A stretch of 64,000 nt of DNA from Rhodanobacter sp. FDAARGOS 1247. GTDB lineage: Bacteria > Pseudomonadota > Gammaproteobacteria > Xanthomonadales > Rhodanobacteraceae. The position numbers and the translations under genes were made by a program. The stretch spans positions 1,798,001-1,862,000 of the forward strand of contig NZ_CP069535.1 of the NCBI RefSeq assembly GCF_016889805.1. Direction: 5' to 3'. Below the pieces are notes generated by a model. That model had not been told where the DNA came from, made no database searches, and worked only from the letters and a program-made list of their open reading frames with translations. Below are positions 1,037 through 5,926 of the stretch, one piece after another (the stretch's first letter is position 1; each line of letters starts with the position of its first letter).

Positions 1037-2730
<1,694 letters not shown>

Positions 2731-2778
2731 TAAGCTTGCACGCTTGCCGGCAGAGCAACCTGCTGGTGACAGATTTAT

Positions 2779-2942
2779 GGAGAGATGGCCGAGCGGTTTA
2801 AGACAGCAGTCTTGACGCGGAGGCAGGAAGCCGAAGCGAACAGCGGCAAAGCCGCTGGCCCCGAAGGGGTGGAGGGCAGGATGCCCGTAGCAAAACTGCC
2901 GTAGTGGCGCGCAACGCGCGCCTCGTCAGTACAACGAGTTCT
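2779..2942 (+). pseudogene. tRNA-Ser 5'-half pseudogene, unit 1
   Basis: This is the most diverged unit: the D-loop region reads GAGCGGTTTAAGACAG where units 2 and 3 and the real tRNA read GAGTGGTTTAAGGCAG. The insert hairpin CAGCGGC-AAA-GCCGCTG is perfect. The terminal hairpin is GGCGCGC-AAC-GCGCGCC. The leader before it (GACAGATTTAT) resembles the leader of the intact tRNA, suggesting this was once the promoter-proximal tRNA. Confidence 0.85.
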
Positions 2943-3107
2943 GGAGAGATGGCCGAGTGGTTTAAGGCAGCAGTCTTGACGCGGAGGCAGGAAGCCGAAG
3001 CGGACAGCGGCGGAGCTGCTGGCCCCGAAGGGGGGGAGGGCAGGATGCCCGGAACAAAACTGCCGTAGTGGCGCGCGGAGCGCGCCTTGCGCAGGACAAC
3101 GAGTTCT
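2943..3107 (+). pseudogene. tRNA-Ser 5'-half pseudogene, unit 2
   Basis: The tRNA-derived 5' half is identical to that of the intact tRNA. The insert differs from units 1 and 3 in ways that keep pairing: CAGCGGC-GGA-GCTGCTG uses a G-U pair, and the terminal hairpin is GGCGCGC-GGA-GCGCGCC. Stem conservation with loop variation suggests selection on RNA or hairpin structure, or copying from a structured element family. Confidence 0.85.
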
Positions 3108-3273
3108 GGAGAGATGGCCGAGTGGTTTAAGGCAGCAGTCTTGACGCGGAGGCAGGAAGCCGAAGCGAACAGCGGCGCAGCCGCTGGCCCCGAAGGGGTG
3201 GAGGGCAGGATGCCCGGAACAAAACTGCCGTAGTGGCGCGCAACGCGCGCCTTGCAGCAGACAACAAGTTTAT
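3108..3273 (+). pseudogene. tRNA-Ser 5'-half pseudogene, unit 3
   Basis: The 5' half is identical to the intact tRNA. The insert hairpin is CAGCGGC-GCA-GCCGCTG and the terminal hairpin GGCGCGC-AAC-GCGCGCC. The spacer ends in GTTTAT directly before the functional tRNA-Ser, unlike the GTTCT that precedes units 2 and 3. Confidence 0.85.
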
Positions 3274-3363
3274 GGAGAGATGGCCGAGTGGTTTAAGGCA
3301 GCAGTCTTGAAAACTGCCGTAGGTGCAAGCCTACCGTGGGTTCGAATCCCACTCTCTCCGCCA
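3274..3363 (+). tRNA. tRNA-Ser(UGA)
   Basis: This is a complete 90-nt class II tRNA with encoded CCA (3361-3363). The acceptor GGAGAGA pairs with TCTCTCC, and the discriminator is G. The anticodon stem GCAGT/ACTGC encloses CTTGAAA, giving anticodon TGA (UGA), which reads UCN codons. The long variable arm GTAGG..CCTAC and T-arm with GTTCGAATC are present. It is the only intact copy of the local tRNA-Ser family and lies close to serS. Confidence 0.97.
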
Positions 3364-3456
3364 GTTATCCAATAGGTAGTGGCTCCGGCCAAGCAGTTCC
3401 GGAACTACCCTACTAAAAGACCTACTACGCCTGATGTGCTGGGCTGTGTGGGCGAG

Positions 3457-3481
3457 AAGGCCACCCTTGAGGCGGCCTTTT
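3457..3481. terminator. Putative terminator between tRNA-Ser and the ART-like gene
   Basis: AAGGCC (3457-3462) pairs with GGCCTT (3474-3479), and the hairpin is followed by two more T residues on the + strand. It could end the tRNA transcript on the + strand and, being bordered by AA on its left side, the convergent gene on the - strand. The stem is short, so confidence is moderate. Confidence 0.5.
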
Positions 3482-3484
3482 GCT

Positions 3485-4246
3485 TCATGGCCCACGGGCC
3501 ATTTGGTCTTGAAGCTTCTTCGCTTCGCGTAGCCTTTCGGCGTGGGGCGCTGTCCTTTGCAAGACCCGCTGCGTTGCCTCGGGATTGAGCCAGCGCGGAC
3601 CTGCGACGTCGCGGGTGTGCCCGACCCTCAACAAAAGTGCTTCGTACTGTTTTTGAGTCACGCTGGCAGTGCCGTAGTAGATTTTCGCGGCTTCGGCGAC
3701 AAGCTCCTCAAACGGGCTGGAGTGTCCGCCCACCGAATAGATATCCTCCCGTTCCAGCTTGTCGATTTCTAGGACAGCTTCGCTTTGGCTGTCTCCGTAG
3801 CAGCCCGCACCCTTCGCATAATTAGCAATAACGGACTTGTTCCGTTCCATCGCATCACGGAAAGCGTGGTCTTGGTACAACTCGCGCAGGTTGACGATCA
3901 CGCTACCGGCGGGCGGCTTGATGGAGAAAATGACGCCCTGATAGCCCTGTCCCTCAGGGGGTACGCCGCCTTTGAAGCCTTTGGCGATTTCGAGGTCCGT
4001 TGTCCACGAGGAAATTTTCTCGGGCAGGCGGTTTTCGCCCAACAAATCCCATACGCCACCCTTCACAAGCGCAATCTGTCTATGGCACACCAAGACGCTT
4101 TCGCGGAACTGCGAAGGCAGGTTCTGACAAGCTGCTTTTAACTCCGCCCCGCGGCGTCGATTCTGCTTCGCGCCACCACCGCGCTGCCAATCGCTTACGG
4201 CTTGAAGCAGGGGAAGATCAAATGTAAATCCATGAGCTGCATTCAT
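3485..4246 (-). CDS. Putative ADP-ribosyltransferase-fold protein (candidate toxin/effector), 253 aa
   Basis: The ATG at 4246 is preferred to an upstream in-frame GTG at 4309, because that codon lies inside a 10-bp hairpin (4302-4325). The pattern matches the R-S-E signature of cholera-toxin-type ADP-ribosyltransferases: VLVCHRQ (Arg56), ISSWTTDLEIAKGF (Ser79/80-Trp-Thr, Ala88, Phe91) and SQSEAVLE (Gln154-x-Glu156, the Q/E-x-E turn). The strand GVIFSIKPPAGSVIV lies between the second and third motifs, as expected for the fold. There is no signal peptide. A C-terminal helical tail rich in R, K and Q follows. The DUF6953-like gene lies just upstream on the same strand. The substrate is unknown, and the fold call rests on motifs only. 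Confidence 0.6.
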   Translation of the reverse strand: MNAAHGFTFDLPLLQAVSDWQRGGGAKQNRRRGAELKAACQNLPSQFRESVLVCHRQIALVKGGVWDLLGENRLPEKISSWTTDLEIAKGFKGGVPPEGQGYQGVIFSIKPPAGSVIVNLRELYQDHAFRDAMERNKSVIANYAKGAGCYGDSQSEAVLEIDKLEREDIYSVGGHSSPFEELVAEAAKIYYGTASVTQKQYEALLLRVGHTRDVAGPRWLNPEATQRVLQRTAPHAERLREAKKLQDQMARGP

Positions 4247-4301
4247 GTACGACCTACCTGAGAACGTTGCCCCGCGTATCGGCGAAGGCTGCAAATTAGA
4301 A

Positions 4302-4325
4302 CTCGGCACCCATGAGGGTGCCGAG
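4302..4325 (-). terminator. Perfect hairpin between the DUF6953-like and ART-like genes
   Basis: CTCGGCACCC pairs perfectly with GGGTGCCGAG around the loop ATGA, giving a 10-bp stem. It lies in the 88-bp gap between the two minus-strand genes. Read on the minus strand it is followed by TTCTAATTTG, a moderately T-rich tract. It may be a terminator or attenuator that lowers expression of the distal ART-like gene. Confidence 0.65.
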
Positions 4326-5113: not shown

Positions 5114-5863
5114 TCATGACGGTTCCTCCGCGGCGTCCGCCGCCCCCGCTTCCTCGGCCATCGTTTCCCTGTAGTTGTTGATGATGAACTCGATCATCTT
5201 CACCACGGAGATCCACTGACGGTCCGTCATGCCCTTCGGCAAGATGATCGCCCCGTCCTTCCCGGCAATCGGGATCGGAATGCTGATCATCGAGTCGTCA
5301 TACGGCTTCTGGTGATGTTTCGGCGTGCCATGGACGGGTTCCTGCTGGGCAAGCGCGGCCGGGGGCGTGATGCTAGGCTTCGCTTTGCGCTTTGCAGTCG
5401 GGGAAACCGTCGGCGCCTTGACGTGCGGGCTGACTTGAATCCCCGCGTCCCGAGTGGCAGCCAAAAAGAAGCTGATGCACTTGCTCAGCGTTGAGCCCGA
5501 GATTTCGTACTCGCGGAATTTGTCGGTCATCTGCTGGGTCGTGGCCGACTTCAGATTGAACGTGCCGTCAGTCACCGCGGAGTAGCTTTGCTCGATCATC
5601 GTCTTGAGCATGGCCTTAGCCACGGCCTCATCGGCAGCAAGATACTTATCGAGTCGCTCAGTGCGCGCGCCGTCGTTGTCGATCAGCTTGAACCACTTCA
5701 GGGCCGCGATGAGCGCCGCCTGCTCCGACCCGGATCGCTTCCGAAGCAATCCCAGACTACGGTCGATCACGTCCGGGAGCACCTCGTGGGAACGCAGCTC
5801 CCCGATGAGCGTCTCGAAGCTCTTGTAGGAGGTGTAAGGGGGCTTGATTGCCTTGTCGTTCAC
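5114..5863 (-). CDS. DUF5343-like protein, 249 aa
   Basis: The GTG at 5863 follows GCGGAGGCGCTC, a good Shine-Dalgarno. A longer reading from 5926 would start inside the predicted promoter and is rejected. The N-terminal half reads PPYTSYKSFETLIGELRSH, then DRSLGLLRKRSGSEQAALIAALKWFKLIDNDG and TERLDKYL. This resembles DUF5343 proteins, which look like winged-helix-type sequence readers. The middle is a low-complexity P/K/T-rich linker (about residues 160-200). The C-terminus has a short SISIPIPIAGKDGAIILPKGMT motif and a helix. The function is unknown. It is the first gene of the minus-strand island and has its own promoter. Confidence 0.6.
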   Translation of the reverse strand: MNDKAIKPPYTSYKSFETLIGELRSHEVLPDVIDRSLGLLRKRSGSEQAALIAALKWFKLIDNDGARTERLDKYLAADEAVAKAMLKTMIEQSYSAVTDGTFNLKSATTQQMTDKFREYEISGSTLSKCISFFLAATRDAGIQVSPHVKAPTVSPTAKRKAKPSITPPAALAQQEPVHGTPKHHQKPYDDSMISIPIPIAGKDGAIILPKGMTDRQWISVVKMIEFIINNYRETMAEEAGAADAAEEPS

Positions 5864-5899
5864 GAGCGCCTCCGCAGGTGCGGGTGGATTTTGGCGCAG

Positions 5900-5926
5900 A
5901 GTATACCTTTCTGATGTGGCGTGCAA
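5900..5926 (-). promoter_or_regulatory. Promoter of the DUF5343-like gene
   Basis: Read on the minus strand, TTGCAC (5921-5926) and TATACT (5900-5905) are 15 bp apart, short of the ideal 17. Transcription would start near 5893, about 30 nt before the GTG start. The -10 hexamer is near-consensus; the -35 is four of six. Confidence 0.5.

Follow-up and report, generated by a model that had tools for sequence, protein, structure and literature searches.

A three-unit array upstream of a Rhodanobacter tRNA-Ser(UGA) gene is a loop-inserted variant of the tRNA-linked repeats

Analysis of the window, a 64,000-nucleotide stretch of the Rhodanobacter sp. FDAARGOS 1247 genome, revealed that an array of tRNA-Ser(UGA) 5′ halves ahead of the intact tRNA-Ser(UGA) gene is a loop-inserted, upstream variant of the tRNA-linked repeat (TLR/rtT) family, and there is very little doubt that the insert carried by each unit is a member of this extended family. 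An earlier note on the same DNA had known of no described example; the E. coli TLRs, first described in 1978 and present in 22 copies at ten loci, are the same family (PMC8144298). We hold with moderate confidence that the whole is best explained by a TLR-type loop insertion and its amplification, which would have given the pre-tRNA-Ser a CsrA-titrating leader.

The array occupies positions 2779-3273 as three tandem units of about 165 bp (unit 1, 2779-2942; unit 2, 2943-3107; unit 3, 3108-3273) and is followed by the intact gene at 3274-3363, all on the forward strand. Each unit consists of the tRNA-Ser(UGA) 5′ half up to the anticodon, a 77-nt insert of four hairpins, the anticodon 3′ strand, a GC hairpin and a linker. 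Tandem-repeat comparison recovered three 165-nt copies (2763-2927, 2927-3091 and 3092-3256) with identities of 86%, 100% (the reference) and 95%, respectively, and the tRNA 5′ half four times at a spacing of 164-166 nt, in agreement with the three units of the earlier note. The anticodon 3′ strand AAAACTGCCGTAG is found exactly four times; the part of the RNA gene copied in each unit comprises the 5′ half and 13 nt of this strand, and a GC hairpin (2905-2923, 3069-3087 and 3234-3252, from sequence and folds) replaces the variable arm, T-arm and acceptor. Within the array and the gene, ARAGORN and Rfam both called a tRNA at 3274-3363 only (Ser, anticodon UGA), which had been taken for the only intact tRNA-Ser; this holds in the window, but the genome also encodes a tRNA-Ser(CGA) (locus L118).

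The insert cores, bounded by CTTGA on the 5′ side and AAA on the 3′ side, lie directly 3′ of the anticodon, as first described, and are one nucleotide longer than the roughly 76 nt first given. They were scored with covariance model R2, built from 95 matches from genomes of the same order (taken as Xanthomonadales) and without E. coli; all three are training rows of the model. The core of unit 1 (2816-2892; 79.2 bits, E of 9e-15 in 76 kb) folds into H1 (2816-2838), H2 (2841-2857), H3 (2858-2870) and H4 (2874-2886). Those of unit 2 (2980-3056; H1 2980-3002, H4 3038-3050) and unit 3 (3145-3221; H1 3145-3167, H4 3203-3215) reach 68.0 and 79.2 bits, respectively.

Upstream of the array lies serS (1070-2350, forward strand; Pfam PF02403 Seryl_tRNA_N and PF00587 tRNA-synt_2b), which ends 429 bp away; the array is near serS as reported, but a small ORF lies between them. 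The proximity looks incidental, because related elements adjoin many other tRNAs, 5S rRNA and tmRNA. The segment 2731-2778 (forward strand) is presumably the native tRNA-Ser leader, and a TTCCTGATAA motif at about 2724-2733 is common to several loci of the genus. A promoter in this leader can only be inferred, because no sigma-70 promoter consensus was found in 2560-3480, nor was a terminator consensus. Beyond the tRNA gene, two ORFs on the reverse strand (3485-4309, no Pfam match; 5114-5926, DUF5343) possibly belong to an island at the tRNA gene.

The inserts fold as four hairpins, with RNA z-scores of -3.05, -2.87 and -2.60 for 78-nt pieces, and also fold well as DNA (-3.62, -2.41 and -3.10). 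Folded alone, they expose AGGAA in the H1 loop and AGGAU in the H4 loop, whereas the H2 and H3 loops lack GGA except for H2 of unit 2, so that the array has six GGA hairpin loops, two per unit. H4 of unit 1 is among them only in the isolated insert: in the minimum-energy fold of 150 nt it is lost to GGCAG/CUGCC pairing, which counts against the preferred explanation, whereas it stays in units 2 and 3. Two units at other loci carry another hairpin repeat (GAGCCTGTCCTGGACTTGATCCAGGA) inside the H4 loop (L024, 1704-1804; L032, 1553-1653).

The covariance-model search suggested earlier found the same cores in relatives, with covarying stems. One alignment of 90 distinct rows has 293 double-change cells, with 90.7% of its cells paired, and another of 88 rows has 433, with 97.1% paired; neither number of double changes was reached by any of 500 shuffles, and although fitting an alignment to a model favours the structure of that model, slid controls drop to about 26-41% paired. 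A chance repeat was rejected on the recurrence of the cores in relatives and on covariation above all 500 shuffles. The GGA motif is located in the loop of H1 in 196/207 and of H4 in 199/209 distinct aligned copies, compared to 7/142 for H2 and 18/210 for H3. These counts come from three alignments that overlap by at least one element (the L008/L118 copy), a MAFFT alignment (A3) with misaligned H1 having been left out, and exclude rows with fewer than five letters in the loop stretch (4, 2, 69 and 1 of 211 for H1, H4, H2 and H3, respectively). Low-scoring copies gave a similar picture (H1 28/33, H4 26/33, H2 1/33, H3 2/33), with some bias remaining because the models contain GGA.

Model R2 also retrieved the E. 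coli repeats. It finds four copies in the tyrT/tyrV region (rttR; E of 6e-7 to 4e-5 in 76 kb) and the RrA, RrB and RrF cores in rrnA, rrnB and rrnD (68.1 bits, E of 2.6e-13 in 10.4 kb), in addition to weak matches (E of 1.6e-4 to 0.0097) among and after the argV-argQ genes near csrA. The tyrV repeat is itself a T-loop insertion (AAGGTTCGA^[core]^ATCCTTC), and in rrnB the core precedes AACTGCCAGGCAT, a copy of the 5S 3′ end, between two terminators. The array thus has the core sequence and structure of the E. coli TLRs and abuts a tRNA gene. In E. coli, the last 18-19 bp of a TLR exactly repeat the 3′ end of the RNA gene that directly precedes it (PMC8144298). The array lacks this feature, its gene being downstream, and is therefore called a TLR variant.

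Dispersed copies point to the loops of RNA genes as targets. Covariance model R1, built from 22 inserts of which three are from elsewhere in the genome, matched in 32/41 genomes, and ARAGORN placed a tRNA in 15 of the 40 fetched loci. T-loop sites (GGTTCGA^core^ATCC) adjoin tRNA-Ser, tRNA-Gln and tRNA-Tyr, the anticodon-loop site reads CTTGA^core^AAA and a D-loop site reads GGTCGA^core^AAG (L111); by eye, one tRNA-Ser copy has cores in both its anticodon loop and its T-loop (L095, reverse strand, about 100-370). A second group of copies lies inside long hairpin repeats such as CTTTCTCTTT...AAAGAGAAAG. The 181 distinct sites with full flanks, a set biased by the richness of alignment A4 in tRNA-Ser arrays and by loci L301-L330 from genomes picked for a T-loop copy, comprise 56 T-loop, 26 anticodon-loop, 5 D-loop and 94 other sites, some of the last also tRNA-linked by eye. 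In the 123 non-redundant sites, which leave out flanks more than 70% alike, with N or short, the last two bases before the core are GA in 74 and the first base after it is A in 84%. T-loop copies in the non-redundant sites are sense in 39 cases and antisense in one, a bias to be read with the choice of part of the set from genomes with the sense T-loop pattern. Flanks pair slightly better than permuted partners (-18.3 vs -16.5 kcal/mol, sd 0.36). Copies occur near Tyr, Gln, Arg, Val, Pro, Glu and other tRNAs, next to tmRNA (L369 and L370) and next to 5S rRNA (L308 and L316), with flanks (GAACTGGGAAGTGA^core^AAACG) that look like a 5S loop when set by eye against E. coli rrnB. Judged from these sites, insertion into loops is highly probable. 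The possibility of a known dispersed repeat at random sites, raised in the earlier note, is half right: the element is dispersed, but its sites are not random.

Several loci have elements head to tail without a spacer (L357, L363, L327 and L124/L150) or with one base between them (L374), and those in L357, L363 and L327 are unequal in length, as if each new arrival had entered at the same point. In genome G329, which has 32 matches, the 15 fetched cores (L341-L355) are identical and lie within larger composite hairpin repeats; in G256, 14 rows of the R2 search score equally.

Comparison between genomes provided further support for the loop entry. A DNA search with the whole unit matched in 32/41 genomes, this one included, many of the matches being to the tRNA 5′ end only. 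At the examined locus, the genus genomes vary from zero to five decoy halves: at least one in 15/25, part of a unit in G011 and G023, and none in 7/25, two of which (G010 and G017) retain a remnant by eye; G014 was not covered by the script reading. In addition, three decoy halves are present in one genome from another family of the order (L034). By eye, 68 of 70 leader bases agree between G002, which has one unit, and G019, which has none. The near-identical leader precedes an occupied gene in G002 and an empty one in G019, indicating that the unit is placed after the native leader and its 5′ half and before a restored gene. However, the anticodon stem of the intact tRNA is not the same in the two genomes, and the event was therefore more than a bare insertion. 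The tRNA-Ser(UGA) anticodon stem occurs in two forms, CAGT/ACTG or CCGG (L023, L037, L041, L043, L045 and L046 vs the window), and in G020 a CAGT unit adjoins a CCGG tRNA (L023), so that concerted evolution of units and gene is not obligatory.

The family extends well beyond the order. At E<=0.001, R2 matched in 116/276 genomes of the class (97/216 genera), and at E<=1e-5 in 34/150 genomes of a phylum sample, 26 of them in other classes and 20 of these 26 in one family. This range is what is new here; we do not claim that earlier wide surveys are absent. A strict T-loop pattern occurs in 113 DNA stretches of genome contigs, and the 80 of these that were listed include Alteromonas, Rheinheimera, Rhodanobacter, Serratia and Buttiauxella; scanned with a pattern, viral contigs gave 0 matches. 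A tRNA was found in 22 of 40 further class loci, and a gathering-threshold Rfam scan of 20 of the 40 class-level loci returned tRNAs only. Among the 116 genomes, the 30 best-scoring have a tRNA within the locus of their top match (up to ~3 kb) in 19 cases, on the strand of the element in 18, against a chance expectation that we take to be about 5% (50 tRNAs in 3 Mb, our own estimate with no control run).

Altogether, we propose that an element of 70-80 nt with four hairpins, of which H1 and H4 have GGA loops and H2 and H3 mostly GNA triloops, inserts into the hairpin loops of genes for tRNA and other RNAs, mostly after GA and before A. Entry into the anticodon loop of tRNA-Ser(UGA) would here have left an intact gene preceded by a 5′ half, and the array of three units may then have arisen by unequal crossing-over. 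The idea of a tiny element that enters the anticodon loop and restores the 5′ half, put forward in the earlier note, fits well with the cores found elsewhere in anticodon, T- and D-loops. As the native leader now lies ahead of the array, pre-tRNA-Ser should carry the units as its 5′ leader, and co-transcription with the tRNA is quite likely. With its six GGA hairpins, the released RNA would titrate CsrA/RsmA at a pace set by tRNA synthesis, a role already proposed for RrA/B/F in E. coli. A sponge, also suggested earlier, is hence plausible through hairpins of the CsrA/RsmA type, though not through seryl-tRNA metabolism.

The signature and one tested relative make a strong case for the CsrA link, which for the Rhodanobacter array is still a prediction. 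Several GGA motifs lie in hairpin loops and are conserved in the family, and csrA is encoded in this genome; its presence in 241/276 class genomes carries little weight either way. Elements lie downstream of csrA in G256, G239, G155, G148, G168, G203, G251 and G258 (by eye, among the rows listed), but they may reflect the tRNAs alone, because the order csrA-tRNA-Ser-tRNA-Arg is conserved and is present in E. coli as well. RrB binds CsrA in vitro via its GGA motifs with a KD of about 100 nM, and changing three of its five GGAs abolishes the shift (PMC8144298). The chance that the array RNA binds CsrA/RsmA is a little better than even, and that it provides useful regulation in vivo is doubtful. 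Further observations weigh against the preferred explanation: E. coli rrA/B/F deletion or overexpression had modest effects, both towards lower CsrA activity, and a predictor gave the other 19 E. coli TLRs a CsrA score below 0.01 (PMC8144298); moreover, 9/116 element-bearing genomes have no CsrA match (by eye, six listed so and three missing from the match table), three of which hold 11, 13 and 15 copies and one of which (G050) is 100% complete.

More tentatively, and with rather less than even confidence, TLRs may be a phylum-wide mobile family that enters the loops of stable RNAs (T, anticodon, D and probably 5S) and carries a twin-GGA CsrA-binding device, so that the titration of CsrA would scale with the synthesis of tRNA and rRNA. 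Those TLRs of E. coli tRNA operons that lack GGA would then be exceptions. The 2021 paper describes TLRs as without known function before its RrA/B/F work (PMC8144298); the wide set provides them with a conserved, testable signature, namely two GGA hairpins and loop insertion, and gives grounds for asking if a coupling of CsrA activity to the transcription of stable RNAs is common among bacteria. A mobile element that targets the loops of RNA genes, as this set suggests, would be of an unusual kind.

An unlikely alternative, though compatible with the preferred explanation, is that the family is a selfish hairpin element mobilised in trans, by a hairpin-binding enzyme acting on single-stranded DNA or by integrases crossing over at tRNA loops; the GGA hairpins H1 and H4 would then be recognition sites and CsrA binding a side effect. 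Despite the strong covariation, interior G-U pairs are scarcer in the element (53/3705, 1.4%) than in the stems of tRNAs at those loci (162/3768, 4.3%; 204 distinct tRNAs), and C(GNA)G triloops close H3 in 175/210 and H2 in 84/142 copies. GNA triloops are best known from DNA, where they form very stable mini-hairpins, so selection on single-stranded DNA is possible. Together with the folding as DNA, these features favour a DNA stage, perhaps single-strand movement, with which an RNA role is compatible. The spacerless elements of unequal length, the identical cores of G329, the equal-scoring rows of G256 and the GA and A at the insertion sites point the same way, and Islander notes anticodon-loop and T-loop crossovers of tRNA-integrating islands (PMC4383910). 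However, no candidate mobilising gene was found, though none was systematically sought, and E. coli RrA/B/F are processed RNAs (PMC8144298). The sense bias at T-loops fits an RNA function, but strand-specific insertion too.

It is improbable that the array is a neutral relic, an old repeat duplicated with the tRNA half by unequal crossing-over and functionless now. The variable copy number in the genus would suit it, as would the loss or breakage of the host anticodon stem in some units (L018 and L031), but conservation of the stems and GGA loops across three aligned sets from many genera speaks against it. Far less probable still is a decoy or sponge for tRNA-Ser metabolism, acting on SerRS or tRNA-modifying enzymes. 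SerRS reads the acceptor 3′ strand, T-arm and long variable arm of tRNA-Ser, all absent from the units, which retain the 5′ half close to serS, and homologous elements lie beside many other tRNAs, 5S and tmRNA; on these grounds the SerRS decoy was rejected. An anticodon-loop intron, archaeal-type or group I, has the right position directly 3′ of the anticodon but practically no standing, with 77 nt, no match to any intron family at E up to 5 and the same core in T- and D-loops, and removal would not restore a full tRNA because the units lack a 3′ half.

Among known systems, the closest are the E. coli TLRs (rttR/rtT, RF00391), which share the four-hairpin core, tandem copies by an RNA gene and copying of part of that gene. 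They differ in lying downstream of the gene and copying its 3′ end, whereas the array lies upstream with a tRNA 5′ half and an anticodon-loop site, and rttR lacks the GGA loops of the array units. The Rfam RtT model (RF00391) gave no match in the array at E up to 5, and the tmRNA-linked relative L369 scored 41.6 against it (gathering 45). RrA/RrB/RrF share the core and two GGA-loop hairpins, but lie between the rrn T1 and T2 terminators in one copy each, with a 5S 3′ end instead of a tRNA half. The AaHKsRNA22 model (RF02902) matches the array weakly (26.5 bits, below the gathering score of 39.8), and its consensus as printed has an H1 loop without GGA, unlike the array, the H4 loop not being printed. 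CsrB/RsmZ-type sponges likewise contain several GGA hairpin loops, and CAGGAUG occurs in CsrB as it does in the array, but the array units lie in a tRNA leader and match no Rfam sponge family at E up to 5. sRNA-Xcc1, also considered, is absent from the Rfam matches of the array and 20 class-level loci. Xanthomonas RsmU, which binds RsmA (PMC7694677), is likened to the array here by its GGA hairpin loops. Repeats similar to rtT also occur upstream of gatY, rbfA and cvpA, where they were noted as BIMEs (PMC2965389). The Pasteurellaceae RtT RNAs are expressed; those of Actinobacillus pleuropneumoniae give Northern blot signals and resemble the array in their position upstream of tRNA genes (PMC4986893).
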